Source of the DNA: Massilia soli
Lineage (GTDB): Bacteria > Pseudomonadota > Gammaproteobacteria > Burkholderiales > Burkholderiaceae_D
NCBI RefSeq assembly: GCF_016809835.1
Contig: NZ_JAFBIL020000002.1
Location: 62,001-126,000 of the forward strand
Direction of reading: 5' to 3'
DNA: 64,000 nt
Shown piece after piece: positions 1-31,961 of this stretch. How positions within the stretch are numbered: the first letter of the stretch is position 1; every line of letters begins with the position of its first letter. The notes beneath the pieces are model-generated. The model did no database searches. It was not told the origin of the DNA and saw only the letters and a program-made list of their open reading frames with translations. A program made the translations under genes and the position numbers.

Positions 1-120
1 GCGGCCTTGCGCTTCGCTCCAGCGCGCCTGTGGCGCTCGGCGGAATGCTGCTGCTGGCGGCGAGCAGGTGCGCCATCGGGGAGCATGAAAAACCCTGAAG
101 TGAGGACGATCCGCTTCAAG

Positions 121-270
121 GGGCGCGCCAGCGAAACCCGTGATGTCACGCCCATTGAGCCGCCGCTTGCGCTGTGAAGCCGGCAGTGGTTCGTCGCCGA
201 GTCGGCGGGTGACATTGAGGGCTGCGCCAGCAAACCCAGCTGTCACAGCCCTCTAGCCGCCGCTAGCGCT
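121..270. repeat. imperfect ~52 bp direct repeat, possible degenerate origin-region DNA
   Basis: Bases 121-173 and 219-270 are alike: both contain GCGCCAGC, AAACCC, TGTCAC and AGCCGCCGCT in the same order. Between them, near 208-222, is GGTGACATTGAGGGCTG, which resembles an IncP TrfA iteron (TGACA-N2-TGAGGGGC) with a base missing. In IncP-1 plasmids oriV lies on this side of korC. One degenerate iteron is far too little to call an origin, so this is only a repeat of unknown function. No gene is supported in bases 1-358. Confidence 0.35.
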
Positions 271-274
271 AGAT

Positions 275-292
275 TAGGGCAGTTTTGCCCTA
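275..292. promoter_or_regulatory. KorC-type operator upstream of korC
   Basis: The sequence TAGGGCAGTTTTGCCCTA is a perfect inverted repeat with 7-base arms and a 4-base centre. It closely matches the IncP-1 KorC operator as I recall it (TAGGGCA/TGCCCTA arms). It lies 66 bases before korC, and TAGACT at 291-296 could be a -10 box overlapped by the operator. This suggests korC represses itself. The -35 region is not convincing. Confidence 0.7.
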
Positions 293-358
293 GACTGTTA
301 CCTGTACTCGGGTGTTTGACTTGGTCAACGGGCTTATCGGATAAGGAATATACGAAGA

Positions 359-613
359 ATGAACAGCAACATCAGGGGCGCGTGCTTGCAACCTGCAGGA
401 CCTCACTTTCAGCGGCCGAGCGGTGATGAAGTACGCGAAGTACTGCATCTTGCCGGTTTTACAGCTGGTCAGGCATCGAGAGCGGTCGGACTTGGTGCCC
501 AAGGTGACCGGACTGTGCGGCGCTGGATCAGCGAAGAGTCGGCAATCCCCTATGCCTGTTGGGCTTTGCTATGCGAGTTCGCGGGTTTGGGCTGCATCTG
601 GAAGAGCGATTGA
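359..613 (+). CDS. korC: KorC transcriptional repressor
   Basis: This 84-residue protein matches the length (about 85) and pattern I recall for KorC of IncP-1 plasmids. The recognisable core is EVREVLHLAGFTAGQASRAV, followed by GDRTVRRWISE and IPYACWALLCEFAGLG. Residues about 22-55 form a helix-turn-helix. KorC represses the klc and kle operons in IncP-1 plasmids. Here KorC-type palindromes sit upstream of korC itself and upstream of the kleE-like gene, which fits that role. The ATG follows an AAGGAA ribosome-binding site. It is the first gene of the recognisable backbone; klcA and klcB, if present, would lie to the left. Confidence 0.85.
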   Translation: MNSNIRGACLQPAGPHFQRPSGDEVREVLHLAGFTAGQASRAVGLGAQGDRTVRRWISEESAIPYACWALLCEFAGLGCIWKSD

Positions 614-680
614 AAGACGTTTGTACGCCAGGGGAAATTCATGAATGTGTATCAATGTTTAGCTATATATTTCGGCTAAT

Positions 681-697
681 TAGGACATTTTGCCCTA
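681..697. promoter_or_regulatory. KorC-type operator and promoter of the kle-nrdB gene cluster
   Basis: TAGGACATTTTGCCCTA is a 17-base palindrome with one mismatch, the same spacing as the IncP-1 KorC operator. TATACT at 696-701 is a good -10 box overlapping the operator, so bound KorC would block it. No strong -35 is visible. The genes downstream are the kleE-like gene, the DUF3717 gene and nrdB, all on the plus strand with no terminator seen between them. Confidence 0.65.
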
Positions 698-845
698 TAC
701 TGTGTGTATGGACGAGGCACTTATGTCCTGATCGCGGAAGTACCCCGGAATGCTCGGGGGGCTTGGATTGAGCACTGACATACTCAGACGCAGGCGCGGA
801 TACCTGTACCTCCGTTGAACCTGGAAACCGGGAAAGGGTCAAGCC

Positions 846-1157
846 ATGAAGAACGTCATCAAGTTTCCGGCTCCAGAGACCGTGCCGCCCACGACTACGG
901 CAAGCCAGATTGTGCCTGTTGGCCCTGCAGAACAGGAGCGTGGCAATCTAGTCCTCAAAGCTATCTGGGTACTGACTGTCCTGCTGTGGCCTGTGCTCCG
1001 TTACGTCGTCATTCTCGATTGCGTCTACCAGTTCTTCCGCATGCTCTGGTTCTGGGATACCCCAGGCACTTACGCCGGGTTCACTTTCATGCTTCACTTT
1101 GCGGTTCTGACCGGCCTGACCTGGTTCGTTTCTGTGTATCAGCCAAAGGGTCTTTGA
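846..1157 (+). CDS. KleE-like small membrane protein
   Basis: This 103-residue protein begins with MKNVIKFP, reminiscent of the KIVKFP start of IncP-1 KleE. A Pro/Thr-rich stretch follows, then two or three hydrophobic segments (about residues 36-65 and 75-97), so it should sit in the inner membrane. KleE is a stable-inheritance protein of unknown mechanism. The position right after a KorC-type operator, where the kle operon lies in IncP-1 plasmids, supports the call; sequence similarity past the N-terminus is weak. The start has a GGGAAAGGG ribosome-binding site. Confidence 0.55.
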   Translation: MKNVIKFPAPETVPPTTTASQIVPVGPAEQERGNLVLKAIWVLTVLLWPVLRYVVILDCVYQFFRMLWFWDTPGTYAGFTFMLHFAVLTGLTWFVSVYQPKGL

Positions 1158-1181
1158 TTGGTGGTTTAGCTGGAGAAAGTC

Positions 1182-1475
1182 ATGACCGTCATCACGATCG
1201 TGCAACTTGAGTCTGCTATCAATCGCGCCCGGGATCAGCACCCTCCGATCGACTGTGTTTTGCACTGGAGCGTAAAGATGTTGGCCGAAGTCTATAGCCA
1301 GATGATCTACCAGAAAGCATCGACGTTAGAGCTGGACAACTTGCCGAATTCAATTAGGGATGAGGTATTCCTGTGGATACCTGGAGACGTCGAGCCTTTC
1401 GTTGCTGGAACCTCGCAGGCATGTTCCTATCGCACTGGTGATCCTGGCTTTGATTCATGTGAGGCGTGCCAGTAA
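1182..1475 (+). CDS. DUF3717 family protein
   Basis: This 97-residue protein has the pattern of DUF3717, a small family common in Burkholderiales: MTVITIVQLESAINRARDQHP, then LAEVYSQMIYQKAST and a short helical end. The usual cysteine-containing middle (PE-aLaevYa) is recognisable. The C-terminus adds a tail with three cysteines (ACSY, SCEACQ). Function is unknown. It starts 24 bases after the kleE-like gene behind a GGAGAAAG site and is probably co-transcribed with it and with nrdB. Confidence 0.7.
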   Translation: MTVITIVQLESAINRARDQHPPIDCVLHWSVKMLAEVYSQMIYQKASTLELDNLPNSIRDEVFLWIPGDVEPFVAGTSQACSYRTGDPGFDSCEACQ

Positions 1476-1535
1476 TACTGGTCCGGCTCGTGACGGCTGA
1501 ACGCAATCTCTCATTTGTGTGCAAAGAAGACGATC

Positions 1536-2639
1536 ATGTTGACTTGGGATGATGAACGACCTGGCCAGGAAGGGACAACTCCGGCTCAATCGATGCCATC
1601 GGACGGTGCGGGGTTGCTCGCCAAGCGTGTCAACGCCGATGACAAGCGCATCATCAACGGTAAGACTGACGTTAATCAGCTTGTCCCGTTCAAGTACAAG
1701 TGGGCATGGGACAAGTACTTGGCCGGCTGCGCGAACCACTGGATGCCACAAGAAGTGAACATGCAGCGTGACATCGAGCTTTGGAAGAATCCGGCCGGCT
1801 TGACGGATGACGAGCGTCGCTTGGTCAAGCGCAACCTTGGTTTCTTTGTGACGGCTGATTCCCTTGCCGCCAATAATATTGTGCTCGGCACTTACCGCCA
1901 CATCACGGCACCCGAATGCCGCCAGTATCTGCTTCGCCAGGCTTTTGAAGAAGCGATCCATACACACGCTTACCAGTACATTGTTGAGTCGCTGGGCCTA
2001 GACGAGCAGGAGATTTTCAATGCCTACAATGAAGTGCCGTCGATCCGCGACAAGGACCAGTTCCTGATTCCATTTATCGATACCTTAACCGATCCGGCGT
2101 TTAAAACGGGTACGGTTGAGGCCGACCAAAAGCTGCTTCGCTCGCTTATCGTGTTTGCCTGCCTGATGGAAGGCTTGTTTTTCTACGTCGGTTTTACACA
2201 GATCCTCGCGCTTGGTCGACAGAACAAGATGACTGGCGCCGCCGAACAGTACCATTACATCCTGCGCGACGAGTCGATGCACTGCAACTTCGGCATAGAC
2301 CTCATCAATGCCGTCAAGGGCGAGAACCAGGATTTGTGGACGCCCACCTTCCGTAAAGAGATCCGTACCCTGTTCTTGGACGCTGTTGAGCTGGAATACC
2401 GCTACGCGGAGGACACCATGCCGCGGGGCGTGCTGGGGTTGAACGCGGCGATGTTCCAGGGTTACCTGCGCTTTATTGCCAATCGTCGCGCAGTGCAGAT
2501 CGGCCTCGATCCACTGTTCGCGAACGAAGCAAATCCGTTCCCGTGGATGAGTGAAATGATCGATCTAAAGAAGGAACGAAATTTCTTTGAAACACGCGTG
2601 ACCGAATATCAGACCGGAGGTGCGCTGAGTTGGGAATGA
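1536..2639 (+). CDS. nrdB: orphan class Ia ribonucleotide reductase beta subunit
   Basis: NrdB carries the diiron-tyrosyl radical cofactor that the alpha subunit needs to reduce ribonucleoside diphosphates. This 367-residue protein looks intact. The ligand set is visible: D108 (TAD), E139 and H142 (EEAIH), E212 (MEGLFF), E246 and H249 (RDESMH). The radical tyrosine is Y146, four residues after H142 as in E. coli. The C-terminal tail ending GALSWE is the alpha-subunit docking peptide. The ATG at 1536 gives the MLTWDDE start usual in Burkholderiales; an upstream TTG at 1515 is unlikely. No nrdA is in the window. It lies between DUF3717 and the korA promoter, probably within the KorC-controlled transcript, and is not a normal part of an IncP control region. 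Confidence 0.93.
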
Positions 2640-2676
2640 CCAGCTGCGAGGTGATGCAGCAAGCGTCACAGTAGAC

Positions 2677-2723
2677 TTTAGCCGCTAAATTCATTTGAGA
2701 TGTCAGTAAAGTTTCGCTAAATA
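2677..2723 (+). promoter_or_regulatory. korA-korB promoter with KorB and KorA-like operators
   Basis: A perfect KorB operator, TTTAGCCGCTAAA, is at 2677-2689. A promoter follows: TTGAGA at 2695-2700, 17 bases, then TAAATA at 2718-2723. GTTTCGCTAAAT at 2711-2722 overlaps the -10 and differs at two positions from the IncP-1 KorA operator GTTTAGCTAAAC. The layout (KorB site upstream, KorA site over the -10) is that of the autoregulated korA promoter of IncP-1 plasmids. Confidence 0.7.
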
Positions 2724-2794
2724 ATTGATATGATCGCTGGCTGACACCCGCAATTTTCAACCGAGGCGCGGAGCGATGACCATTGGGGAACCGG

Positions 2795-3100
2795 ATGAAG
2801 AAGCGGGTAACCGAGGCACAGTTCCAGACAAGCATCATGGACCTGGAAGTAGGCCAGCAGACAATCGAGATAGCGCGAGGCGTCTTGGTGGAAGGGCTGC
2901 AGCAATCGAGCTTCGTAAGAACGCTGGGCCTGACCAGGGGCGCAGTATCGCAAGCCGTCAATCGGGTTTGGACGGCCCACCTGGAGAAGAGCCTGCCAGA
3001 AGGTTACGAGCGAGTCTCAGTGGTACTGCCAGAACAGCAGGCGTTCATCGTGAAGAAATGGGCACAGCAAGCCGCCTTGAAACGGGAATCCAAACAATGA
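2795..3100 (+). CDS. korA: KorA global repressor
   Basis: This 101-residue protein has the length of IncP-1 KorA and its signature regions: MKKRVTEAQFQ, LEVGQQTIEIARGVLVEG and the helix-turn-helix LGLTRGAVSQAVNRVW at about residues 38-53. The C-terminal dimerisation part (GYERVSVVLPEQQAFIVKKW) resembles that of TrbA at 30,583. KorA co-represses plasmid promoters with KorB. The ATG at 2795 is chosen over an upstream TTG at 2783 because it gives the family start MKKR. Its stop overlaps the korB start (ATGA). In IncP-1 plasmids korA lies inside incC in another frame; here no incC surrounds it. Confidence 0.92.
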   Translation: MKKRVTEAQFQTSIMDLEVGQQTIEIARGVLVEGLQQSSFVRTLGLTRGAVSQAVNRVWTAHLEKSLPEGYERVSVVLPEQQAFIVKKWAQQAALKRESKQ

Positions 3101-4089
3101 AAATTGGTGCAGCAGCGCGGCAAACGGACCCGGCACCCGCCGCGGCGCCAGCGGAGGCTACAGCGGTACCGCGCGATCGCGGGCCGCTGATGATTTCGAT
3201 CGACCTGATTGACGAGGACCCCGAGCAGCCGCGTTCGGCTGACAATCCCGGCTTCCGGCCGGAGAGCATCCAGGAGCTGGCCAACAGCTTTGGACCCAAA
3301 GGGCCGAAGACGCCATTGTCCCTGCGCGATAATCCTAAGGAGTCGGGGCGCTACATCATCAACCACGGTCATCGCCGTTTCCGTGCCTGCAAGGTCAAGA
3401 AGCTGGATGAGGTACCGGCATTCATCGACAACGACTACGACGTCGACGACCAGATCATCGAGAACATTCAGCGTGAGGGCCAGTCTCCGCGAGAAATTGC
3501 GGAGCGCATTGGCATCAAGCAGGCTGCGGGCGCGAAGAACAAGGACATCGCGGCACGCTGGGGCAAATCCGGATCATGGGTTACTCAGTATGCGACCCTG
3601 CTGGATCTTCCAGAGCCGATCGCAGCTGTGTTTAATGCCGGCCGGGCGAATGACGTCACCGTGGTCAACGAGCTCGTGACTGCCTATAAGGGCAATCCCG
3701 AAGAGGTCACGGATTGGCTGAGTGTTCCAACCCAGGAAATCAGCCGTGGCGAGGTCAGGCTGCTGCGCGAGTTCCTGGCTGAGAAGAACAAAGGAGGTTC
3801 AACCATGCGTGATCCAAATACGCTGGATATTGTCTTTGGTGAAACGGACGCTGAAGCCGACGAGGGCGCGCAAGGCGACAAGCCTAAGAAGGAAAAGGGA
3901 CGCAATACTGACCCGGACAAGCTTAAAAAGGCGATCGTACAGGTCGAGCATGACGGACGTCCAGCTCGCCTCATGCTGAGCAAGCGCCCGCCGGCCGAAG
4001 GCTACGCATGGATCAAGTACGAAGACGATGGCCAGCAATTTGAAGCCAGCCTGACCGATGTGCGGCTCGTTGCTTTGATCGAAGGATAG
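3097..4089 (+). CDS. korB: KorB, ParB-family global repressor
   Basis: KorB binds TTTAGC(C/G)GCTAAA sites and represses many plasmid promoters; in IncP-1 it also works with IncC in partition. With the ATG at 3097 the protein is 330 residues, slightly shorter than IncP-1 KorB (about 358). Visible are IDLIDEDPEQPRSADNPGF (residues 35-53), the ParB nucleotide box NHGHRRFRA (89-98), a central helix-turn-helix domain (about 125-170), and a C-terminal SH3-like dimer domain ending EASLTDVRLVALIEG. A larger frame open from 2776 overlaps korA and is rejected. Six perfect KorB sites lie in this window. IncC, its usual ATPase partner, is absent here. Confidence 0.95.
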   Translation: MKIGAAARQTDPAPAAAPAEATAVPRDRGPLMISIDLIDEDPEQPRSADNPGFRPESIQELANSFGPKGPKTPLSLRDNPKESGRYIINHGHRRFRACKVKKLDEVPAFIDNDYDVDDQIIENIQREGQSPREIAERIGIKQAAGAKNKDIAARWGKSGSWVTQYATLLDLPEPIAAVFNAGRANDVTVVNELVTAYKGNPEEVTDWLSVPTQEISRGEVRLLREFLAEKNKGGSTMRDPNTLDIVFGETDAEADEGAQGDKPKKEKGRNTDPDKLKKAIVQVEHDGRPARLMLSKRPPAEGYAWIKYEDDGQQFEASLTDVRLVALIEG

Positions 4090-4197
4090 GTGCTTTTCGA
4101 CCATGCCGGCGTGTCGTCACGCCATCATGGTCGTGCATCTAGCAGGCGGCTCGCCATCACATTGCTGGGTCCAACATTTGCTATGTCAGACATCAAG

Positions 4198-4221
4198 AAC
4201 TCGCACCAGCGAGTTTTTTTT
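4198..4221 (+). terminator. rho-independent terminator after korB
   Basis: AACTCGC (4198-4204), loop ACCA, GCGAGTT (4209-4215), then a run of eight T. It ends the korA-korB transcript about 110 bases after korB. Confidence 0.85.
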
Positions 4222-4550
4222 CGCCTGATTAATTGGCCCGGGCGCGAACAGACACGCCAGCACCTGGCACTCCGCGGCCAGGAGGCACGTGCAAGGGAAC
4301 AGACAACCAACTGCGGGGTCAGATGATTCGACCGGAGTGCAAAATTCGCTGTTGCTGCAGACAGTCAAGCCTTCCGGCAAGGAATAGGGTTTCAATGGAT
4401 ATGTCGGGTCGTCATCGATCCGGCAGAAGGCGGCAAAACAGCCTACGATTTCGCACTGCTTATGCTTTAATCGGCTAGAATGGCTTGCTTGATTGTAATC
4501 AAATCTCCTATGCCACCCGCCCGCATCCATCCAATTCGACGGAGACTGTC
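4222..4550. other. intergenic stretch without a supported gene
   Basis: In IncP-1 plasmids korF, korG and kfrA would follow korB. None of these is recognisable here. Open frames in this stretch are short, with poor coding character. It presumably contains the promoter of the kfrB-like gene, but I see no clear boxes. Confidence 0.5.
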
Positions 4551-4895
4551 ATGAAGCAGCGCCTTCTTGTAATGAACGGCCAGCGCCTTCTACAGATCGA
4601 GAAAGAGGGCCAGTGGGCGACTGATAAGGTGGAGAAGGCCGGGGCATTGAAGCCTGGCATCTACAACATTCACTTGGCCGTTCAGGCGGACAAAGCCAAG
4701 ACGCACGAAGGGATGATCATCTACCATGACCACACGCATATTTATCAGCAGACCGGTAAATCATTCGTAAAGCACGCTCTCTCTGATTTCGATAAAGTAC
4801 CTGAGATCGGCAGTAATTCCAGCATTAGATATGAGCAGGGCGCTGCTCAGTCGTCGCAGTCCACATCGCTCAAACTGGGCCGAGGAATCTCTTGA
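4551..4895 (+). CDS. kfrB: KfrB-domain protein
   Basis: This 114-residue protein begins MKQRLLVMNGQRLLQIEKEG and runs on through ALKPGIYNIHLA. Residues about 50-95 form a KfrB domain: an exchange of short strands with HEGMIIYHDHTHIYQQTGKS and FDKVPEIGS-SIRYEQG. KfrB proteins are associated with KfrA and KfrC, which improve stability of IncP plasmids. The ATG follows GGAGACTGTC; an upstream frame from 4485 is not needed. A KorB operator lies 6 bases after the stop, between this gene and the kfrC-like gene. Confidence 0.72.
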   Translation: MKQRLLVMNGQRLLQIEKEGQWATDKVEKAGALKPGIYNIHLAVQADKAKTHEGMIIYHDHTHIYQQTGKSFVKHALSDFDKVPEIGSNSSIRYEQGAAQSSQSTSLKLGRGIS

Positions 4896-4900
4896 TCGAC

Positions 4901-4913
4901 TTTAGCCGCTAAA
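4901..4913. promoter_or_regulatory. KorB operator between kfrB and kfrC
   Basis: Perfect TTTAGCCGCTAAA, 14 bases before the ATG of the kfrC-like gene and next to its GGAG ribosome-binding site. Confidence 0.85.
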
Positions 4914-4926
4914 ATCGGAGGCAGTC

Positions 4927-5547
4927 ATGGATCAGAAGCAGAGGCACCTACAGCAACAAACGAGGCCCGGGCAGGCCGGCATTCAGGCCCAGGACGCCGA
5001 GGCCCAAGCCGACGGCTTGATGGAGCGAAGCCGGGAACTGCAGGTCGAGCAGGCCGCATTGGCCGAATTCAACACGGTTGAGGAATCGTACGGAACGGCG
5101 CTCGCGGTCCAGATCGAGGCGAAACATGACCAAGCTGAACGGATCGAGGACCGGCTTGAAAAGCTTATCGAACAGCAAGCATCAAAACTGCAGCAGTGCC
5201 GATCGGAACAGCCTGCCCTGATCGCGTTGCCTGGTGCACGTGCGCGCTGGCAGCAGAAATTGGAGCAGCAGCAGAGTACGATGCAGCGGTTACAGGGACG
5301 TCTGGAAGGAGTGCGTGAGATCAAGGATGGCATGAGCATCCACGGGCCGCGAATCGAGGAACTTGCAATTCGCAGGCTTCGTCATCAGGATCCTGGCTTG
5401 GCTTCGCAATGGGCCGAACTTCAAGAGGCTCAACGATTGAACCAGGCGCACCAGCGCCGGATGCAGAAAGAGAAAGAGCAGCGGGAGCAGCAGCGAACAG
5501 CTGCCGGATTGTCGCAGACGTTGACGATAAGCAATCGACTAGTCTAG
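4927..5547 (+). CDS. kfrC: KfrC-family coiled-coil protein
   Basis: This 206-residue protein is mostly charged alpha-helix and predicted coiled coil, rich in Gln and Glu. The C-terminal block VREIKDGMSIHGPRIEELAIRRL matches the pattern I recall for KfrC of IncP plasmids (IREGMGLHSPRIEELATRK). KfrC works with KfrA and KfrB in stable inheritance, possibly through a filament or partition complex. It follows the KfrB-domain gene with a KorB operator between them. It is convergent with traM, 53 bases away. KfrA, the DNA-binding member, is not seen in the window. Confidence 0.7.
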   Translation: MDQKQRHLQQQTRPGQAGIQAQDAEAQADGLMERSRELQVEQAALAEFNTVEESYGTALAVQIEAKHDQAERIEDRLEKLIEQQASKLQQCRSEQPALIALPGARARWQQKLEQQQSTMQRLQGRLEGVREIKDGMSIHGPRIEELAIRRLRHQDPGLASQWAELQEAQRLNQAHQRRMQKEKEQREQQRTAAGLSQTLTISNRLV

Positions 5548-5600
5548 CAAATTGACCGCGCTCGCGCGCGGCAGTCCAGCAGTTGCCGCTACGTGGTCGA

Positions 5601-6032
5601 TCACGAACCAGCCCACAGCACGATCGCCGCAGCAAACAGCGTCGCGCACGACGCGAACACATTAAGCCAGGCGATCGTGCGGGCCTGTTGAACACGAAAC
5701 GCAGACCCACTCAACGCCGTACTCACCTCGGCCGCCACAGCTGCCGCGGCCTTCTTAGCGCCGTCCTGCATCAGCTGCTCCATCGCACCTTTGCTGGCAT
5801 CGAGTGCAGCATTCAGGATGCGCTCGGCCTTTTCCTTGGCGTCATTTCCCCAACGCTGGGACAGCAGTTCGAGCTCTTCCTTGAACTGGTCCAGCTGCAC
5901 CTGGTGGGCCTTTGAGCTTTCCTGCATCAGCCTCAGATTAATCGTCTGCAGTACCAGGATCGGATCATCCCGGCCTACTACGATGCCGTGCTTCTCGGCG
6001 ATCTCCCGTATTAAGGCGTCGAACTGGTCCAT
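5601..6032 (-). CDS. traM: TraM, conjugal transfer protein
   Basis: This 143-residue protein matches IncP TraM in length and sequence: LIREIAEKHGIVVGRDDPIL, then LQLDQFKEELE-like helices, AERILNAALDASKGAMEQLMQDGAKKAA, and a C-terminal hydrophobic segment (about residues 118-140) that anchors it in the membrane. TraM is part of the IncP leader operon traK-traL-traM transcribed away from oriT. Its exact function is not settled. Its ATG overlaps the stop codon of traL. Confidence 0.9.
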   Translation of the reverse strand: MDQFDALIREIAEKHGIVVGRDDPILVLQTINLRLMQESSKAHQVQLDQFKEELELLSQRWGNDAKEKAERILNAALDASKGAMEQLMQDGAKKAAAAVAAEVSTALSGSAFRVQQARTIAWLNVFASCATLFAAAIVLWAGS

Positions 6033-6760
6033 CAGAGCACCATGGAACTGTCAAGTTGTGCGAAGACTTGGGCCTTGATGATTTTCAGCCGTTGCCGGGT
6101 CATGATGGTCAGCGAGTCGAGCGCGAGCGCTTCATCGAAGGTCAGGCGCTGCTGCAGCATTTCGGACAGGTCGCGGCCATACGTTTCTTCCTTGAGGGTT
6201 GGAAGCCGCACGATCGCCGATACCCTGGCCTTGTTGTTCACGTACGCCTTCATCTGCTCAAACGACTTACCTTCATGTTCGATCGGGCCGTAGTACGGGT
6301 TCAGCCACACCACGAACATGGTGTTTTCGGGAAACTGCGTCACAAGCTGGTTGAACCCGCTGACGGTATCGACCAAGGCCTGACCCCCGGTAATGACAGT
6401 GTGGACCACCAGGTCGCGGCCCATCTCCGCCAACAACGCTGGTACCTGGTTGCTGATGAGGTAGTGCGAAAGCGGCACGAACGAGGATGCGCCATTGTCG
6501 ATCACCACATCACCACAGGCGGCCGCGACCATTTCGATCAGCTCGTCAAAGCTGCGCGGGTTGATCTCGTCGTTCTCCATGATATTAAGGCGCTTAACGT
6601 TGAGGCCCTTGTAGCTATGAAAGGTTGCATTGACAGGATCCGTGTCGATATTCGTCGGCGCCAGTCCCTTGCTTGCCAGGTACTGCGCCAAAAACGCGGC
6701 GTCGGTCGATTTTCCGACTCCGCCTTTTCCCTGCAGCTTTATATGTACTTTCGGCTTCAT
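6032..6760 (-). CDS. traL: TraL, P-loop ATPase of the conjugation leader operon
   Basis: This 242-residue protein closely follows IncP TraL: the Walker A LQGKGGVGKS is at residues 8-17, followed by DTDPVNATFHSYK, DVVIDNGASSFVPLSHYLI and FVVWLNPYYGPIEHEGKSFEQMK. It belongs to the ParA/MinD-like ATPases but is a transfer protein, not the partition protein IncC. The ATG at 6760 shares its A with the traK stop and gives MKPKVHI, matching the family; a GTG three bases upstream is possible. Its role in transfer is poorly known. Confidence 0.93.
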   Translation of the reverse strand: MKPKVHIKLQGKGGVGKSTDAAFLAQYLASKGLAPTNIDTDPVNATFHSYKGLNVKRLNIMENDEINPRSFDELIEMVAAACGDVVIDNGASSFVPLSHYLISNQVPALLAEMGRDLVVHTVITGGQALVDTVSGFNQLVTQFPENTMFVVWLNPYYGPIEHEGKSFEQMKAYVNNKARVSAIVRLPTLKEETYGRDLSEMLQQRLTFDEALALDSLTIMTRQRLKIIKAQVFAQLDSSMVL

Positions 6761-7176
6761 CACATTAGCTCCTTAATGTTCGGTGCTGGGTTGAAGGTAA
6801 ATCCGGCCGGTTCACTGGCGGCCGGCGCGGCTCGTTGGTGCGGGATGGGTTTCGACGGAACAGGTTTGTCAGCAGCATTGCGCAGATGCGCTTTCCGAAA
6901 GGTTGGGACGTTGGCGGCCTGGCTGGTCGCGAGCACAGGCTGGTCGACCGAGCGAAGGTAGCGGTTGACATAGTTAAGGAAGGTGTCATAACCGAACTCG
7001 ATCCGTTTGCTGTCGTGCATATGTGCCCACACGGTTTTGACAGCGTACCCCTCATCCAGGGCCTGCCTCACATCGTCGCGCACGGCCAGGAATGCGACCA
7101 GGTTCTTGTCGCGTCTGGTCGGGGCCGGCCGGCGCTTTACCCACTCGGCCAGCTGTTCTGTATATGACTTAGCCAT
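6760..7176 (-). CDS. traK: TraK, oriT-binding accessory protein
   Basis: TraK binds the leader side of oriT in IncP plasmids and bends it to help the relaxosome. The 138-residue protein has the IncP start (MAKSYTEQLAEWVKRR), KNLVAFLAVRDDVRQALDEGYAVKTVW and the C-terminal GFTFNPAPNIKELM. A Pro/Ala-rich linker lies between them. It is the first gene of the traKLM leader operon, divergent from traJ, with oriT in the 355-base gap. Confidence 0.9.
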   Translation of the reverse strand: MAKSYTEQLAEWVKRRPAPTRRDKNLVAFLAVRDDVRQALDEGYAVKTVWAHMHDSKRIEFGYDTFLNYVNRYLRSVDQPVLATSQAANVPTFRKAHLRNAADKPVPSKPIPHQRAAPAASEPAGFTFNPAPNIKELM

Positions 7177-7359
7177 GTCGCCTTTCTTGCCCTACTGGAT
7201 GTTGCTTTGTTTGGGTGTAACCCGCCTACGCTTGGGTCTAAGTATAGGCTCAGCTGCCGAAGTTTTCGCTATATCCGCTGAAAAAACTACCTGTTTTCTT
7301 GACGAAGTCGAGGTTAAATCGAAAGTCGGGTGGTACCCTGACTTGGCGTAATCGGCTCG

Positions 7360-7480
7360 TAGAGGCGGGCAGGATAGGTGAAGTTAGCTAACCAGCGGAG
7401 CTGGTTATCTATCTTCCCATTCCCTTATTCGCGCCTTCGGCGCTCAACGGGATCCTGCTCTGCGAGGCCAGCCGGCTGCC
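7360..7480 (-). other. oriT: IncP-type origin of transfer (oriT)
   Basis: Read on the minus strand, 7384-7366 is ACTTCACCTATCCTGCCCG, the RK2 nic region. The nick is expected in ATCCTG/CCCG, opposite the 7370/7369 junction. An inverted repeat TAACCAGC-GGA-GCTGGTTA (7389-7407) sits where RK2 has the TraJ-binding hairpin, but with a different sequence. A second block at 7425-7478 closely matches the RK2 segment with AATAAGGGA, a short hairpin (GCGCC-TTC-GGCGC), CCCGTTGAGC and GAGCAGGAT. So the nick site is conserved while the TraJ recognition hairpin has diverged. Confidence 0.92.
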
Positions 7481-7502
7481 GCCGTCGATAAGCGTACGCA
7501 GC

Positions 7503-7515
7503 TTTAGCCGCTAAA
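7503..7515. promoter_or_regulatory. KorB operator upstream of traJ
   Basis: Perfect TTTAGCCGCTAAA, 16 bases before the traJ ATG, between oriT and traJ. It would put the relaxosome operon under KorB control. Confidence 0.85.
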
Positions 7516-24354: not shown

Positions 24355-25293
24355 TTATTTCTCCCGAATGATGGTGACGCTTTGCTGATCCCGGCCGACG
24401 CCGGCTGACAAGATACCTTTGTGGAATACGGCGTCGACGATGTAGCGATCCTCATGGATGCGGTAGTTCACCTGAGCCATCACATCGTCGCTGAACAGGC
24501 CGCCGTCCTTCAGAACGACCCTCAAGATTGGCGCTTCCGTTTCCGCCATTGCTGCTGGCATCTGAATGATGGTTCTGACGCCATCGTTATAGACACGAAC
24601 AGGCTTCCAGGGGGCCTTGCCTTTGATGTCGTAAGCGAAGCTGAGATTAGCAATGCTCTCCTTGGTCTCCGGAATAATTTGTTCCTGCATTAGCTTCGCC
24701 TCCCGCATCTTGACGGCATCCCACTTGGCCAGAGCATCCTCGGGGTAGATGAATCCGACTCGGGCCATGAACTCGGTACGGTGCGAGCGCAGATTGATGT
24801 GGTAGGAACGGCGGTTGGTGGTCACGATCAGATTGGTGTTGAGGCCGACGTCCTGCGGTTTCAGGATCAAATGCTGCACTTCGGTTGCGCCGGACCCGCT
24901 CACGGCCGGTTCCACGATAAAGCGCGGATCGCCCCCGTTGAGGTTGTTGACCTGTTCGCCCGGCTGCAGCTCGATATCGCACGCCTTCAACACTGCGCAC
25001 ACGACGCTGATTTGCTGGGTGCCGTACACGAAGCGCACCATGCCGTCGTTACCGGCCACTGGCTTCATGCCGGTGGCGCTCGCGGCTTGCCATTTTTGAG
25101 CAATCGCCAGTGCAGCTTTTTCCTGTGCCGTGAGCTTGGGCGCTTTCTTCGAGAAATAGGCCTCTGCTGCGTCGCGTTCCTGAACGGGCGTTGTGTTTTT
25201 GCCTGATTGCTTGCCGCTGGCCGCGTTACCGCTGGTCGCTATCGCGAACAAGGGCGCAGCGCTCAGTATCATCGCTATCAAATGCTTGTTCAT
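24355..25293 (-). CDS. trbG: TrbG (VirB9-type) outer-membrane core protein
   Basis: The ATG at 25293 follows AAGGGGCAATTCC and gives a signal peptide ending near GNA-ASG; the frame open from 25323 is rejected. The 312-residue protein has VirB9 features: VRFVYGTQQISVVCAVLKACDIELQPGEQV, LILKPQDVGLNTNLIVTTNRRSYHINL and a C-terminal domain (VYNDGVRTIIQMP). It forms the periplasmic/outer-membrane ring with TrbH and TrbI. Confidence 0.93.
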   Translation of the reverse strand: MNKHLIAMILSAAPLFAIATSGNAASGKQSGKNTTPVQERDAAEAYFSKKAPKLTAQEKAALAIAQKWQAASATGMKPVAGNDGMVRFVYGTQQISVVCAVLKACDIELQPGEQVNNLNGGDPRFIVEPAVSGSGATEVQHLILKPQDVGLNTNLIVTTNRRSYHINLRSHRTEFMARVGFIYPEDALAKWDAVKMREAKLMQEQIIPETKESIANLSFAYDIKGKAPWKPVRVYNDGVRTIIQMPAAMAETEAPILRVVLKDGGLFSDDVMAQVNYRIHEDRYIVDAVFHKGILSAGVGRDQQSVTIIREK

Positions 25294-25304
25294 GGAATTG
25301 CCCC

Positions 25305-26078
25305 TTAAAGTTGTTTCGACCAAGCGAAGTCGCGCAGGTGGATACCCAGCGGGTTATCGTTCATTTCCTGTTCCGTTTTTTCCGGGCCGGCCGGCACCGT
25401 GTAGACCGTCAAGAGCGCACGCCAGCGCTGGGGCTTGCTCTTCAAGACTCCCTGCCGATCGCGCGTTGTTTCGATCCAGTCGACCTGGTACGTGTCGGGT
25501 GTCTGCGCCAGGACGGTTTCGATTTCGACGCTGACCAGTTCTTTTTCTGCCCGCTTGAATGGACTGCTGCTGTCCGTACCGTTAAGCCATTCGTTGGTCT
25601 TCGCAGTGGCTGGGTCATTTGGTGCGAGCATCGCGTACACGCGGAATACCGCCTTGCGTTGCAACGATACGTCGGGCGTCACCAGACGTACGTCGCTGAT
25701 CCATGCCGCCACGCTGGCGCGCAGGATGGCCGGATCGGCTGCTGTGGTGCGCTGGGCCGGGGCCACCGCCACCACCTGGCCCAGCTTGTCCACCTGGACG
25801 ATGTAGGGCACGAACTTGGACTGACTGCCGATATGGATCATGCCGCCCACGCTGGCCAGCATAAGCAGCAACGCCGCCATAGCGACGACTTGCCACATCT
25901 GACGACTGGCGGCACTCGCCGCGTAAATGTCGTTCCAGGTCCGGCGCGCTGAGAGCCACGGGTTTTCGCTCTCGCCATGGCGACGACCGCCGTCGACCAG
26001 TTCCTTATCGCGGCGCGTGTCACTGTCCGGCCGCTTCATGACCAGTTTCTTGATCCGCTCTCCGAAGCTCATATTCAT
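25305..26078 (-). CDS. trbF: TrbF (VirB8-type) inner-membrane assembly protein
   Basis: 257 residues (RK2: 260). A short cytoplasmic N-terminus is followed by a membrane segment (about residues 60-82) and a periplasmic NTF2-like VirB8 fold (WISDVRLVTPDVSLQRKAVF, YQVDWIETTRDRQGVL). Its ATGA start overlaps the trbE stop. Confidence 0.93.
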   Translation of the reverse strand: MNMSFGERIKKLVMKRPDSDTRRDKELVDGGRRHGESENPWLSARRTWNDIYAASAASRQMWQVVAMAALLLMLASVGGMIHIGSQSKFVPYIVQVDKLGQVVAVAPAQRTTAADPAILRASVAAWISDVRLVTPDVSLQRKAVFRVYAMLAPNDPATAKTNEWLNGTDSSSPFKRAEKELVSVEIETVLAQTPDTYQVDWIETTRDRQGVLKSKPQRWRALLTVYTVPAGPEKTEQEMNDNPLGIHLRDFAWSKQL

Positions 26079-28657
26079 GCTGTCACCTCTTCATCTTTGC
26101 GTTGCTGTTTCGTCGGCTGCTCCATTCCCACGTAATCGCTGAGCTTGAGTCCCTTCGCTGACAGCCATTCGTGTACCCATTCATCGCCGTATTTCGCTTC
26201 AAGCCGCTCGATTTCCGCGATCGAATCGAGGTCAGTAGCGCCCGCAAATGCAAGGGCCATCGGGCCGAGGGCCAGCTCGTACAGGCGCCGGCCATTCTCC
26301 GAAACGCAGTAGTACTGCTTCTTCGGAATGGCAGTGGCGACAATTTCAATCTGGCGTTTGTTGAGGCCCATCCGGCGATACAGGGCCGCGGTATCAGGAT
26401 CTCGGGCGTACACGTTGGGGAGGAAGATCTTGGTCGCGGTCGATTCCACGATCACATCGAGGATGCCGCTGTTCTCGGCATCCGTCAGGTTTTGCGTCGC
26501 CATCACAACCGAACAGTTCTTCTTCCCGAATGCCTTGAGCCATTCCCGGATCTTCTCCCGGAAGGCGGGATGCCCCAACATGATCCAGGCTTCGTCCAGG
26601 AACAGGATCGCCGGCTGGCCATGCAGGCTGCGCTCGATGCGACGGAACAGGTAGAGCAGCACCGGCAGCGCGTACTTTTCGCCCAGGTTCATCAGGTCTT
26701 CGATCTCGAAGGTGGTGAACTTCGACAGTTTCAGGCCATCATGCTCCGCGTCGAGCAGCTGGCCCATCATCCCGTCGACCGTGTACTGTTTCAGCGCTTC
26801 GCGGATCGGCTCGTCCTGTACCGTCATCGTGAACTCAGACAGGGTGCGGGCGCCGCTTTCATGCATGTTGATGATCGCAGTGCCAATTTCGTTGCGTTGC
26901 GCCGGCGTCGTGATAAGACCGTTGAGCGCGAGGATCGTGTCAATCCATTCCATCGCCCAGGCCCGATCGCCCTTGGTGTCGAGGAACTGAAGCGGGCAGA
27001 AGGCCAACCGGCTGCCCTCGGCACCGACAGCGAAGTGAAGGCCACGCACGCCCTTTGTCGTGGGATACATTGACTTGCCTTTTTCAAAGCAGTAGACCGA
27101 CATGCCCTGATAGCGCAGCGCCTGCAGCGCGAGAAGTGCCAGCTTGGTCGACTTGCCGGAGCGGGTCCGGCCGGCCATGAAGCAGTGGCCCAGGTCCGCT
27201 ACATGCAGGTTGAACCGGAACGGCGTCGAACCATTCGTCACGCAGTGCATCAAGGGCGGCGCATGTGGCGGGTACAGCGGGCAAGGCGCGTAATTCAGGC
27301 CAGTCCAGATCGTACTTGTCGGCAGCATGTCGGCCAGGTTCATCGTGTTAATGAGCGGCCGGCGCACGTTTTCGACGCCGTGCCCTGGCAGGCTTCCCAA
27401 GAACGCGTCAAGCGTGTTGATGGTCTCTATGCGCGCCCCGAAGCCAAGGCGGCGGATCGCTTTCGACAGCTGCAGCGCGCCAGCTTCCACATGCTCGCGG
27501 CTCTCGTCCATCAGCACCACGACACTGGTGTAGTAGCCGTCTGCCACCAGGCCGCTGTTCACTTCCGCGATGGCCGATTCGGCATCGCTGACCATCGACA
27601 CAGCATCTTGGTCGATAGACCCGGTGTTTGTATTGAACACCTGGTCGAAGAAGCCGCGGACCTTCTGCTTCCACTTCTTCCGATACTTCTCCAGGTGCGA
27701 AACGGCTTCGTGCGGGTCCATGAAGATGAAGCGGCTCGACCAGCGATATTCACAAGGCTGTTCCGCGAGAGCCGACAGGATCCCGGGCGAAGACTCAAGT
27801 GGGAAGCCGTCGATCGCGACGACCTGGATATAGTGACGCCCTATTTTCGGCACCACGCCGCCCCAAAGTTCCTGGCCCCCGATCAGCATGTCCAGGTACA
27901 TCGGATTGCTGGGCAGCTGAATCGGCTGATTCAGGCCGGTTGTGCAGAACTGCAGCCAGCGCAGGAAATCATCGTGCGTGACCGTGCCGCCGTCTTCCTG
28001 TACGAACTTGTTACACCGAAGGCGTGACAGCCTCACCGCAGCTGACAGGCGGGAGTCGATCGTCACGCAATCGCGCTTGAACATATCGATCAGGCCTTGC
28101 GTGCGCGCCTGGTGGTTGAGCGCTACAGCCTCGTCATCGAACATCATTTCGACAAACTTCCGCTCAGCCAGCAAGGGCGGAAAGTACGTCAGGGTAAGGA
28201 CGAAGTAGCCTTCATACATTGTTCCCAGGCGCTCGAAGAGGCGGCGCCGCTCTTCCTCGACTGCGGCCGACACGGGATCGGGGAAATGCGACAGGCCACG
28301 ATCAGAATAGCCAGCAGCTGGCCTGCGCACCGCGTCCACGTGCATCATCCAGCCGTTGCCAAGGCCCGATAGGGCCTGGTTGATCCTGAATGACACCATT
28401 TCCCGATTCTCTTCGGTACTGCTCTCGTTGTCGTCGCCCTGGTACAGCCAGGCGGCCATCAACGAGCCGTTCTTGCCGACAATGACACCGTCGTCGACCA
28501 CGGCCGCGTAGTTCAGCAGATCGGCGAACCCGGCCGCCTTGGACCGGTGCTTTTTCAGCTGGGCCTCGTTGTTCACGGCGCGGATGCGCGCGTAGAGCAA
28601 CAGCAGCATCAGTCCGCCGAGGCCAGCCAGGGCGTATGCGATGGTTGTGACTATCAT
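26075..28657 (-). CDS. trbE: TrbE (VirB4-type) transfer ATPase
   Basis: The ATG at 28657 (MIVTTIAYALAGLGG) overlaps the trbD stop as ATGA; an open frame reaching 28810 is not needed. The 860-residue protein (RK2: 852) has an N-terminal membrane segment, Walker A AGRTRSGKSTKLALL (about residues 487-501) and Walker B PAILFLDEAWIML (about 684-696), plus VVMATQNLTDA. VirB4 ATPases drive pilus assembly and DNA transfer. Confidence 0.95.
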   Translation of the reverse strand: MIVTTIAYALAGLGGLMLLLLYARIRAVNNEAQLKKHRSKAAGFADLLNYAAVVDDGVIVGKNGSLMAAWLYQGDDNESSTEENREMVSFRINQALSGLGNGWMMHVDAVRRPAAGYSDRGLSHFPDPVSAAVEEERRRLFERLGTMYEGYFVLTLTYFPPLLAERKFVEMMFDDEAVALNHQARTQGLIDMFKRDCVTIDSRLSAAVRLSRLRCNKFVQEDGGTVTHDDFLRWLQFCTTGLNQPIQLPSNPMYLDMLIGGQELWGGVVPKIGRHYIQVVAIDGFPLESSPGILSALAEQPCEYRWSSRFIFMDPHEAVSHLEKYRKKWKQKVRGFFDQVFNTNTGSIDQDAVSMVSDAESAIAEVNSGLVADGYYTSVVVLMDESREHVEAGALQLSKAIRRLGFGARIETINTLDAFLGSLPGHGVENVRRPLINTMNLADMLPTSTIWTGLNYAPCPLYPPHAPPLMHCVTNGSTPFRFNLHVADLGHCFMAGRTRSGKSTKLALLALQALRYQGMSVYCFEKGKSMYPTTKGVRGLHFAVGAEGSRLAFCPLQFLDTKGDRAWAMEWIDTILALNGLITTPAQRNEIGTAIINMHESGARTLSEFTMTVQDEPIREALKQYTVDGMMGQLLDAEHDGLKLSKFTTFEIEDLMNLGEKYALPVLLYLFRRIERSLHGQPAILFLDEAWIMLGHPAFREKIREWLKAFGKKNCSVVMATQNLTDAENSGILDVIVESTATKIFLPNVYARDPDTAALYRRMGLNKRQIEIVATAIPKKQYYCVSENGRRLYELALGPMALAFAGATDLDSIAEIERLEAKYGDEWVHEWLSAKGLKLSDYVGMEQPTKQQRKDEEVTA

Positions 28658-28965
28658 TTGTATTGCCTCCCTTGACTGCCTGTGTTCAAGCGGAATGGCG
28701 TGCTGCGCGCGGCGTAATACGGCTTGTACTTCCGGTGCCGCATGTACACCTTGCGCATCTGAGGGTCTGACTTGGCCATGCGCCGGGTCGCAAAAAGCGC
28801 CCCGAACCATAGCGAGAGTCCGACCACCGTTGCCCTCAACTCTTGTGCGTTGAAAATCAGTGAGAACGCCAGCAACCCCGAGAACATCACCAGTTCACGA
28901 TCCCCACCCATGAACAGGTTGTGTCGATTGCCGGCCCGACGAATGGGTATCGTGCGGAGCGCCAT
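28654..28965 (-). CDS. trbD: TrbD (VirB3-type) membrane protein
   Basis: 103 residues, the same as RK2 TrbD. It has MALRTIPIRRAGNRHNLFMGGDREL, two membrane segments (about 25-62) and RMAKSDPQMRKVYMRHRKYK. It works with TrbE, to which it is translationally coupled. Confidence 0.93.
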   Translation of the reverse strand: MALRTIPIRRAGNRHNLFMGGDRELVMFSGLLAFSLIFNAQELRATVVGLSLWFGALFATRRMAKSDPQMRKVYMRHRKYKPYYAARSTPFRLNTGSQGRQYK

Positions 28966-28967
28966 CG

Positions 28968-29396
28968 CTATGCCTCCTGGCCTGCAGCCGCCATTGCCAT
29001 CATGCGGACGCTCGTCACGGCCGCATCGCCGATGGCGGCAATTTCAGCGCCGCGGCCGAAGAAGGTGCTCATGACGTTCTGCGCGCCGACCAGCAGGGCC
29101 ATTACCAATACCAGGAAGATCAGGGTACGGAAGAAACCATTGAGGTCGCCGCCGAAGACCAGCACGCCGCCGGCGACGACGATGCCGATCGTCGACAGCG
29201 CGAACGCAACCGGCCCGGTCACGGAGTTGCGCAGGTTGGTCAACCAGCTTTCGTACGGCAGCGAGCCGCCCGTTCCTTCGGCAGCAAACGCCGTATGTGG
29301 GGCAAAAACGATGACGAAGAGCAGCAGTCCGGCGCAAGCGTAGAACGTCAGGGTACGTTTGTAGGCATCGGACTGGCTGATGGGTATTGCGCGCAT
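28968..29396 (-). CDS. trbC: TrbC, cyclic pilin precursor
   Basis: 142 residues. A long signal peptide ends near AFAA at about residue 38. The mature part, from [19 protein letters not shown] through two hydrophobic helices to STFFGRG, is almost that of RK2. AEIA, the tetrapeptide that TraF removes before joining the ends in RK2, is present after GRG. With TraF at 12,579 this implies a circular pilin. The extreme C-terminus, discarded in maturation, has diverged. Confidence 0.93.
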
Positions 29397-29405
29397 GACA
29401 AGCTC

Positions 29406-30368
29406 CTATAGAGTTTTGGTGAGGTAATCGCCGCTGGCGTAGCCGGAAACTTCCAGCACTTCCTGCACGCGACGGCCTTCGGGGATACGGGCGATGTGAA
29501 TGACCACATGAACCGCCTCGCCGATCAGCGGTTCAATTTCGGCCGGGGCCGATTCGTTACGTGAAATCAGGGATTTGAGCCTGGTCAGGCCGGCATGCGC
29601 GCAGTTTGCATGCAGTGTGGCGGCGCCGCCTTCGTGCCCGGTATTCCAGGCATCAAGCAGGTCAAGCGCTTCGGCGCCGCGCACCTCGCCGACTAGAATC
29701 CGGTCCGGACGCATCCGCAAAATGGTCTTGAGCAGCGCGGTCATCGAGACTTCAAGCGAGGTGTGATACTGGACAAAGTTCTCGGCGTTGCACTGAATCT
29801 CGGCGGTATCCTCGATGATGCAGATCCGCTCGTGGGAATTGCTGACAACCATTTCATTGATGATTGCGTTCACCAGCGTTGTCTTGCCCGAGCCGGTTCC
29901 ACCTGTAACCAGGATGTTTCGATGGGCAAGTACGGCCTTGATAATCGCGTCGCGCTGCGCCGACGTCATGATTCCGGCCTCGACGTACTGGTCGAGGGTG
30001 AAAATATGGATCGCTTTTTTTCGGATCGAGAACGCCGGCCCTTGGACCACGGGCGGCAGCTGGCCAGCGAAGCGCATGCCCTTAATGGGCAGTTCGCCTT
30101 CGATCAGCGGCTTTAGATGCCTGACTTCCTTGCCGTGATAGGCAGCGACCGTCTTTATGATCGCCTCGGCCTGAGCGGGACGAAGCGTGCCGATGCACTT
30201 CATGCGCTCGCCCAGGCGCTCATGCCACAGCCGCCCGTCCGGGTTGCACATCACCTCTGCCGTCCGCGGATCGTTAAGCGCAGTCATGAGCGTAGGACCC
30301 ATGTCGCGCTCTAGCTTAACCTTCGCCCGATCTTTCACGGTCGCCAAGTTGTCGTCTGGCTCATCCAT
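29406..30368 (-). CDS. trbB: TrbB (VirB11-type) traffic ATPase
   Basis: 320 residues, equal to RK2 TrbB. Visible are Walker A LVTGGTGSGKTTLVNAI (about 154-170), the Asp box IIEDTAEIQCNAENFV, Walker B RPDRILVGEVRGAEALDLL and the His box GGAATLHANCAHAGL. It forms a cytoplasmic hexamer at the base of the channel. It is the first gene of the trb operon, with a KorB operator about 210 bases upstream. Confidence 0.95.
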   Translation of the reverse strand: MDEPDDNLATVKDRAKVKLERDMGPTLMTALNDPRTAEVMCNPDGRLWHERLGERMKCIGTLRPAQAEAIIKTVAAYHGKEVRHLKPLIEGELPIKGMRFAGQLPPVVQGPAFSIRKKAIHIFTLDQYVEAGIMTSAQRDAIIKAVLAHRNILVTGGTGSGKTTLVNAIINEMVVSNSHERICIIEDTAEIQCNAENFVQYHTSLEVSMTALLKTILRMRPDRILVGEVRGAEALDLLDAWNTGHEGGAATLHANCAHAGLTRLKSLISRNESAPAEIEPLIGEAVHVVIHIARIPEGRRVQEVLEVSGYASGDYLTKTL

Positions 30369-30574
30369 AGCTTATCCCCTACTGACCGCCTCGATAATAC
30401 ATCGCTGCGGATATACCGAAAGCAGACACAGGACAAACAAGGGGGATTTCTAGCGCGTTGGTTTACTCAGGTTTGACCAAGCGCAAACTAAAGCGCATTG
30501 GTCCTGTCGGAAGGGGAGGGCGAGCCGCTGTCGGGGGAGGCAGGAAGGCGAGGCGTTGCGCGCTCGCCTGAATA

Positions 30575-30587
30575 TTTAGCCGCTAAA
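30575..30587. promoter_or_regulatory. KorB operator between trbA and trbB
   Basis: Perfect TTTAGCCGCTAAA that includes the TAG stop codon of trbA (30585-30583). It lies about 205 bases before the trbB start, in the trbB promoter region, as in IncP-1 plasmids where KorB represses trbB from a distance. Confidence 0.85.
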
Positions 30588-30993
30588 GCTTCTTTTCCTG
30601 GCGTTCAACCTTTCGGTTGTCTGGGTTCATTTTTGCCAGCTTCTTACGATTCTCCTGATCCCACTGCCGGACCTGGAATGCCTGGAATTCCGTCAGAGTG
30701 GCGGCCACTCGAACGTAGCCGCCGGGAAGACTAAGCCGGGCATGACCGCCTGCTAGTACGTCCAGCGATTCCTTGTCCAAGTCCGTTGACTCAAGCAAGG
30801 TCGCCAGCGGCGTTTCCAGTGCTGCCGCAATCTGTTCCATGATCCGCAGCGAGGGGTTACCTTGGCCAGTCGTCAGGTCCGATAGGAACGATATGGAAAT
30901 GTTGGCTTTGGTCGCTAGATCTGACTTCGTAAGTCCCTTTTCGTCCAGGATACGAAGGATATTGGTAAAGAAAATGATGTGATAAAAGTACAC
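30583..30993 (-). CDS. trbA: TrbA, repressor of transfer genes
   Basis: TrbA represses tra and trb promoters in IncP-1. The helix-turn-helix region GLTKSDLATKANISISFLSDLTTGQGNPSL and the following TPLATLLESTDLDKESLD match RK2 TrbA. The C-terminal part (PGGYVRVAATLTEFQAFQVRQW) resembles that of KorA. The start is uncertain: GTG at 30993 gives 136 residues against 121 in RK2, and no strong ribosome-binding site is visible. Confidence 0.88.
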   Translation of the reverse strand: MYFYHIIFFTNILRILDEKGLTKSDLATKANISISFLSDLTTGQGNPSLRIMEQIAAALETPLATLLESTDLDKESLDVLAGGHARLSLPGGYVRVAATLTEFQAFQVRQWDQENRKKLAKMNPDNRKVERQEKKL

Positions 30994-31024
30994 GGCCGTT
31001 TTTAGTTATTGTTTGTTAGGAGAT

Positions 31025-31037
31025 TTTAGCCGCTAAA
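31025..31037. promoter_or_regulatory. KorB operator upstream of trbA
   Basis: Perfect TTTAGCCGCTAAA 32 bases before trbA. In IncP-1 plasmids this operator lies in the divergent trbA/trfA promoter region. Here nothing resembling ssb or trfA follows on the other side, so the backbone appears to break at this point. Confidence 0.85.
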
Positions 31038-31961
31038 TTCTCGTTCAGGTAACAATTGCTAGCGTTCCCCTGCAGTGCCTCGTAGCTAGTCGTAAAAGCT
31101 TATCTCGAGGATCCGAAATATTCGTTACGCTCAAGTGCAGAATAGCTCGATTAATCCTTGAAACAAATGCTGCGCATCAAACAGAGCGTGCAAAGCCGTT
31201 GACTATGGGGAGGGGAATTTTCGCTGCGCGAAAACCGGCTATGTCGTGCGCGAGCTCATCGAGCCTCCGGTGGAGTCTCGCCCCTTCGGGCTTCCAGCGC
31301 CTTTCCAACGGCATCCCTAGCCTAAAAGCAGACGCGCTCGCTGCGGCAGCTCCCGGCGCGAAATTGGCGTTACTGTGCCAGCTTGAGTTGCGCTTGGCCG
31401 GAGCGTGAGTGGGAGTCAAACCCCGAGGGTCATTGAAGTAGGGGTGAAGATTAGCCGAGTAGGTAGTAGGTCCCGCTTACAGGTCACTTAGATTGATCAC
31501 CTCAACGGTGATTGACTCCCAGGCGAGGCCCAAAGAAGCATTCGATAGAGCGCTATGCTGCAGTCCTCGTCGCTTGCTGAGCGAAGCCGGCAGAGCGGTA
31601 GGTCTTGCTTACGGGTCGCTCTCGCAACCTTTCAATTGTCTTCGCATCAAAAGACCCGCAGAGTAGACACGGATCAATTTCGGCTTTATACTGTATTTAA
31701 ATACAGTGTCTAGTCGTCAAAAGAGCGATGAAAGACAGGTCAGCGCGGGGGTGAAGTTAAGGACGGGTTGCCAGCGGTAGTGTAACGCCCGTTCGAGTTC
31801 GCAATGATGTTATTGCGGGTACCACCCCAGTGAGCATTTGCGCACTGGTAACTACGCACGACCTACCGGTTCGACAGCTTCACCATTATTTAAGACCTCT
31901 GTAATACAAGGGTTTTCGGTAATGGTTTTGGTAGGTTGGGCATGTCCTGTAAGGATTACAT
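31038..31961. other. gene-free stretch at the end of the IncP backbone
   Basis: I see no supported gene. It contains two alike 23-base segments of the form GTAGGTC-N2-GCTTAC-N-GGTC near 31,464 and 31,599, an SOS-box-like palindrome at 31,691, and short frames without ribosome-binding sites. ssb and trfA would be expected here in an IncP-1 plasmid; no trace is recognisable. Confidence 0.6.
31691..31706. promoter_or_regulatory. SOS (LexA) box-like palindrome
   Basis: CTGTATTTAAATACAG is a perfect palindrome fitting the LexA consensus CTGT-N8-ACAG. No gene starts close downstream; the DUF1508 gene begins 255 bases later. It may be a leftover of a lost SOS gene. Confidence 0.6.

Follow-up and report, generated by a model that had tools for sequence, protein, structure and literature searches.

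The 64,000-nucleotide stretch of Massilia soli DNA described here (the window, C22:62001-126000, C22 being the source contig NZ_JAFBIL020000002.1) contains part of a 74-kb element that is very probably an integrative conjugative element (ICE) derived from an IncP-1 plasmid. A sequence-only reading had arrived at this idea from a collinear IncP-1-type backbone and a tRNA 3' fragment at 59.5 kb, and our results support it: the backbone from korC to trbA is confirmed at window 359-30993 in the proposed order, the fragment reproduces 48 bp at the end of an intact tRNA-Ser without a mismatch, an integrase is present, the contig measures 642,646 bp, and the joined flanks are found in 4 of 16 relatives.

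Borders, target site and conjugation backbone

With respect to the borders, we read C22:1-186000 of a genome of 4.99 Mb in 39 contigs. An intact tRNA-Ser(GGA) lies at C22:47247-47337, and a 48-bp perfect direct repeat links its 3' end (C22:47293-47340) to C22:121519-121566 (window 59519-59566). To the left of the window, where the sequence-only reading had advised looking, we find this tRNA gene and a tyrosine integrase near it, and neither trfA nor IncP-1 iterons; beside the integrase lies a small excisionase-like open reading frame (ORF) of 105 amino acids. A draft genome in 39 contigs could contain a plasmid misjoined to the chromosome, but the element carries an integrase of its own and is bounded on either side by tRNA-end repeats, and the same layout is seen in a relative, G526, with attachment (att) repeats of 123 bp (97%) around a tRNA-Cys, so that we regard such an artefact as extremely improbable. 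A 94-bp imperfect palindrome at attR (window 59541-59634) corresponds to the tRNA-side terminator.

As a probe for the empty site we joined the two flanks into 513 bases, with the junction at base 441, and searched 17 genomes of the genus, including that of M. soli. In 4 of the 16 others (G450, G415, G518 and G488), a single match runs across the junction and continues for 41 bases or more beyond it. In G450 both flanks are on one contig, separated as matched blocks by about 5.2 kb of other sequence, with no element match in the 42 kb fetched. The element has a site-specific recombinase and direct att repeats flanking it in the chromosome, as is characteristic of an ICE, and the site is unoccupied in these relatives.

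The backbone runs korC, kleE, korA, korB, kfrB, kfrC, traM-L-K, oriT, traJ-I-G-F, traC, trbN-B, trbA (Table 1; in IncP-1, traH sits within traI). Relaxase, oriT, coupling protein and type IV secretion genes, as expected of an ICE, are all present, and the integrase and the genes found from traM to trbA are open frames. A nic-like octamer between traK and traJ is shared with all seven ICE-like relatives introduced below and with R751, pBS228 and pAV3334-2, and was not found in the plasmid-type relatives G408 and G399. In the gene-content matrix, where the element's own column is 100/100 by construction because its proteins were among the queries (its identities rest on other searches), kfrA, klcA, klcB, kleA, kleF and ssb were not found in the element.

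Replication, partition and the Kor regulators

No TrfA match (PF07042) was found in the whole M. soli genome by a search that matched 6 of 12 genomes or records, including both annotated TrfA plasmids. IncP-1 iterons (TGACACTTGAGGGGC, up to 2 mismatches) number 10, 10, 11, 10 and 10 in five TrfA plasmids and zero in the element. These searches support the absence of trfA and oriV claimed by the sequence-only reading, and the single degenerate iteron-like site that it placed left of korC was not recovered at this threshold. A Rugamonas metagenome-assembled contig with an IncP backbone (L012:4001-4642) has a RepL-type gene at the trfA position, preceded by repeats; an alternative initiator of this type was rejected for the element, which has no homologue of the RepL-type protein.

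The first ~108 codons of the 437-codon korB frame are incC1-like: they line up with the beginning of IncC1 from G408 and share their DNA with korA, which is read in another frame. The korA stop is overlapped by an incC2-type start, two codons after which the KorB sequence proper begins; a start of the korB frame at window 3100 overlaps that stop. The ATPase part of incC is missing from the element (gene-content matrix), and KorB is without the IncC-interacting peptide, while the incC 5' end runs in frame into korB. PMC11790492 places this peptide in the N-terminal 30 residues of KorB, and reports that CTP binding requires R117 and that KorB contacts KorA through F249. In a set of 26 KorB sequences, a peptide motif that we built ourselves occurs exactly in 10 of the 15 with an incC-type neighbor (of the other five, G605, G399 and L015 look like variants, and L014 and L016 lack it) and in none of the 10 without incC. 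The counterparts of R117 and N146 are conserved in 26/26, the position of F249 has F in 23 sequences and Y in the other 3, and the M. soli KorB keeps all three.

The element contains 10 KorB operators, 6 perfect and 4 with one mismatch (0.02 expected from shuffles), and 111 kb of its flanks contain none. The KorA operators are eroded: the two best sites in the element carry 2 mismatches, and a search for sites with 0 or 1 found none. The full Kor network that had been proposed is therefore only partly borne out: korA, korB, korC and KorB operators are there, but at the KorA operators the network is partial. The seven ICE-like relatives have 2 to 4 KorB sites at up to 1 mismatch and no KorA sites. 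In an alignment, KorA and TrbA have in common the C-terminal helix with its aromatic residue (KorA position 84). The M. soli genome also encodes another KorB-like protein, which is distant and has an IncC-like neighbor (G000:C33:87253-87408), on a contig with integrases and a TraG-like match elsewhere.

Relatives, gene trees and rival explanations

Of 392 genomes of the family, 15 have a TraM (PF11657) match, which exceeds the cut-off in 13, M. soli included. TrfA is found in 2 of the 12 others, G408 and G605 (in G605 on a different contig from the IncP region), and these two are also the plasmid-like genomes with incC. Seven are ICE-like by gene content (G781, G421, G755, G526, G648, G623 and G409), on contigs of 6.7 Mb and 623, 321, 264, 149, 143 and 42 kb; G460, G513 and G742, in which korB was not found on contigs of 5,292, 49,052 and 7,251 bp, were counted neither as ICE nor as plasmid. 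All seven have korB and kfrB and miss incC, korA, korC, trfA, klcA, kleA and traE; the korA matches of five land on trbA. Only the M. soli element among the eight keeps korA and korC. The expectation that a chromosomal IncP-type element with KorA, KorB and KorC would be unusual is right as to korA and korC, but large contigs with IncP-type elements are no rarity in this family.

An integrase with a long frame lies near the kleE-korB end in G648, G755, G421 and G526; in G409 it is a partial match sharing the kleE open frame, in G623 it is degenerate, and on the G781 contig none was found at E 0.001. Besides the repeats of G526, G755 shows a 52-bp, 88% match to a tRNA-Ser end; no att repeats were found in the other ICE-like relatives, with only a 17-bp match in G648 and no second copy for G421 or G623.

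At the order level, 9 of 399 genomes have TraM matches, and TrfA was found in none of five in a search in which the controls were also silent. In G015 (C1, ~401600-402900) and G332 (C5, ~73000-74300), from another family, korB lies within ~0.3 kb of trbA, with no incC match in the stretches fetched, an arrangement that looks like the removal of all replication and stability genes. G183 has a partial incC-like match. In Massilia sp. Root351 (L018:6798-13442), a truncated-looking integrase ORF near tRNA-like repeats is followed by kleE, korB, part of kfrA and kfrB, and no TraG was found in that genome at E 1e-20.

The element nests with a plasmid-type relative in three of four gene trees, pairing with G408 in those of TraG (96/93), KorB (99/94) and TrbB (84/87); five ICE-like rows form one TraG clade (100/99). 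A single clade of all ICE-like rows, meaning one common origin, was rejected for TraG (p 8.5e-7), KorB (5.8e-46), TrbB (0.0059) and TraL (2.2e-4), in tests whose groups were named after the first trees had been seen and which include long branches for several rows. The first TraG tree and the TraG and KorB clade tests do not contain L015, the TrbB and TraL trees do not contain L015, L016 and L017, and the TrbB tree also lacks G421. Because the element nests among plasmid-type relatives and keeps an in-frame incC remnant, its direction of change would be from plasmid to ICE, a reading that covers this element and not the other ICE-like clade. The reverse, that IncP-1 plasmids descend from such ICEs and the element is ancestral, could draw on some trees in which ICE-like forms branch deeply or find no firm place (G421), but it does not fit the incC1-like stretch fused to korB or the nesting, and we consider it very improbable.

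Several points weigh against an IncP-1-derived ICE, or at least a mobile one. Missing trfA or iterons alone are no proof of an ICE: iterons are also zero in the plasmid-type relatives G408, G605 and G399, and G399, without TrfA, has a RepL-type gene. This replacement of trfA in a close relative, and a scan that covered some but not all of the element's ORFs, are what could favor a plasmid temporarily in the chromosome that replicates through an unrecognized initiator; against this stand the absence of a RepL-type homologue, TrfA and iterons and the loss of the partition ATPase, which make it improbable. The TraL tree leaves the element and G408 unplaced relative to each other. The peptide motif is a strong but not perfect marker of incC: KorB of L017, a contig that has a TrfA-like gene, carries it despite only a scrap of incC, which means that incC loss is not confined to ICEs. 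(L017:4382-11095 is a Methylococcales contig with a TrfA-like gene, korA, korB and the incC scrap.) The excisionase-like ORF has no Pfam family match, and we infer excision, transfer and repression from sequence. Finally, trbK, trbM, trbO, trbP and traE were not found in the element (gene-content matrix) and it contains an IS21-like pair, named by eye, so that it may be immobile.

These last two points, together with the eroded KorA operators, would suit an IncP-derived ICE that has lost excision and transfer. TrbM, TrbO, TrbP and TraE are dispensable in RK2, however, and the open frames in the integrase and in the traM-to-trbA genes found, as well as att repeats perfect over 48 bp, speak for function; a dead island is possible but doubtful, and the IncP-1-derived ICE is, on balance, somewhat more likely than not to transfer still.

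Mechanism, cargo and comparison with known systems

In the mechanism that we propose, the integrase and the small excisionase-like ORF would excise a 74-kb circle, TraI with TraJ and TraK would nick oriT, the Trb channel would pass one strand to the recipient, and the integrase would insert the element into the recipient tRNA-Ser(GGA). KorB, severed from IncC, would have lost its partition role and retained that of a CTP-type clamp repressor loading at six operators, and KorB, TrbA and KorA together would keep the korA-korB, kfrC, traJ, traI, trbB and trbA promoters quiet. Conversion of IncP-1 plasmids to chromosomal ICEs probably happened more than once and with the same syndrome, in which the trfA-oriV-klc-incC block and traE are lost, a tRNA-targeting integrase is gained at that end, and KorB is kept minus its ParA-binding peptide. 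A ParB-type partition clamp would thereby be left solely with long-range repression of transfer, locked by TrbA and, only in the M. soli element, by KorA too.

Until now, the passage from plasmid to ICE has mostly been deduced from surveys of wide scope. The M. soli element would show it under way in the best-studied family of broad-host-range plasmids, its korB still fused to what is left of the lost partition gene. The element would also be a natural separation of the partition and long-range silencing jobs of KorB, and predicts that the ICE KorB silences with TrbA or KorA and does not bind IncC. In addition, searches for IncP elements that are based on trfA overlook chromosomal carriers.

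A DUF3717 gene and nrdB interrupt the backbone between kleE and korA (window 1182-2639); neither this insertion nor the incC loss with the korB fusion had been noted in the sequence-only reading. A second nrdB in the genome (C34:161000) is 85% identical in amino acids to the element copy; a search of 72,556 plasmid records at E 1e-40 gave nrdB matches in 170, the best at 83.6%, and the DUF3717 search found one plasmid record. Our guess is that the element nrdB helps DNA synthesis after transfer. A cargo segment (window 43369-49720) matches plasmid NZ_CP103372.1 from Massilia sp. H6 at 96% identity, and just inside attL (C22:47494-52493 and 55694-56446) there are DprA-like, phosphoribosyltransferase, trypsin-like and CoiA-like genes.

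Table 1. Features of the element, in window positions unless prefixed with C22
Feature	Position	Strand	Remark
Whole element	C22:47293-121566 (window -14707 to 59566)		74,274 bp, both repeats counted
Tyrosine integrase	C22:52507-53676	-	389 aa; Arm-DNA-bind_2 and Phage_integrase domains; near tRNA end
ICE, part in window	1..59566	.	
korC	359..613	+	
KorC-operator-like site	681..697	.	3 mismatches to consensus
kleE	846..1157	+	Pfam KleE
DUF3717 gene	1182..1475	+	
nrdB	1515..2639	+	ribonucleotide reductase small chain
KorB operator	2677..2689	.	perfect; before korA
korB frame	2776..4089	+	437 codons; Pfam KorB domains
korA	2795..3100	+	69% to KorA of pAV3334-2
kfrB	4551..4895	+	
KorB operator	4901..4913	.	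perfect; before kfrC
kfrC	4927..5547	+	
traM	5601..6032	-	
traL	6032..6763	-	
traK	6760..7176	-	
oriT nic-like octamer	7369..7376	-	TATCCTGC
KorB operator	7503..7515	.	perfect; before traJ
traJ	7532..7903	+	
KorB operator	7908..7920	.	perfect; before traI
traI	8045..10606	+	relaxase
traG	10603..12582	+	coupling protein
traF	12579..13115	+	
ORF at traD position	13209..13475	+	64% to ORF between traE and traC in G408
traC	13522..17235	+	
trbN	19209..19811	-	
trbL	19830..21557	-	
trbJ	21685..22464	-	
trbI	22482..23903	-	
trbH	23910..24455	-	
trbG	24355..25323	-	
trbF	25305..26078	-	
trbE	26075..28657	-	open frame reaches 28810
trbD	28654..28965	-	
trbC	28968..29396	-	
trbB	29406..30368	-	
KorB operator	30575..30587	.	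perfect; between trbA and trbB
trbA	30583..30993	-	
KorB operator	31025..31037	.	perfect; before trbA
Cargo	36201..59308	.	RND efflux set, sigma factor, sulfite oxidase-like, GGDEF-EAL, gamma-glutamyltranspeptidase, GST
attR	59519..59566	.	perfect copy, tRNA-Ser 3' end

With respect to known systems, the element is nearest to pAV3334-2 by DNA and to the TrfA-bearing contig G408:C27 by protein. It shares with the IncP-1 plasmids R751 and pBS228 the gene order from korC to trbA, with collinear tra and trb genes, and the KorB operator. Unlike IncP-1 plasmids, it has no TrfA initiator, oriV iterons or IncC-KorB partition pair (the incC ATPase is gone) and no ssb, klcA, klcB, kleA, kleF, kfrA or traE, and it has an integrase, att sites, an inserted nrdB and a KorB without the IncC-interacting peptide. 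The Tn4371 family resembles it as chromosomal ICEs with IncP-related trb genes, for which PMC2789088 describes a VirD2/RlxS-like relaxase, RepA, ParA, a truncated ParB, the trb order BCDEJLFGI and the attB TTTTTCAT. The element differs in its TraI/J/K, Kor regulators, IncP trb order (trbB-J, L, N) and tRNA-Ser site; membership was rejected, as it has neither the TTTTTCAT target nor the RlxS-type relaxase nor the trb order set out in that paper. SXT/R391 ICEs blur the line between ICE and plasmid, with replication and active partition reported in them (PMC4489591), whereas the partition ATPase of the element is gone. No IncP-1-derived ICE was found in the open-licence literature searched. The ICE concept and plasmid-ICE exchange are already known; new here is the IncP-1 case, in which KorB has become separated from IncC.

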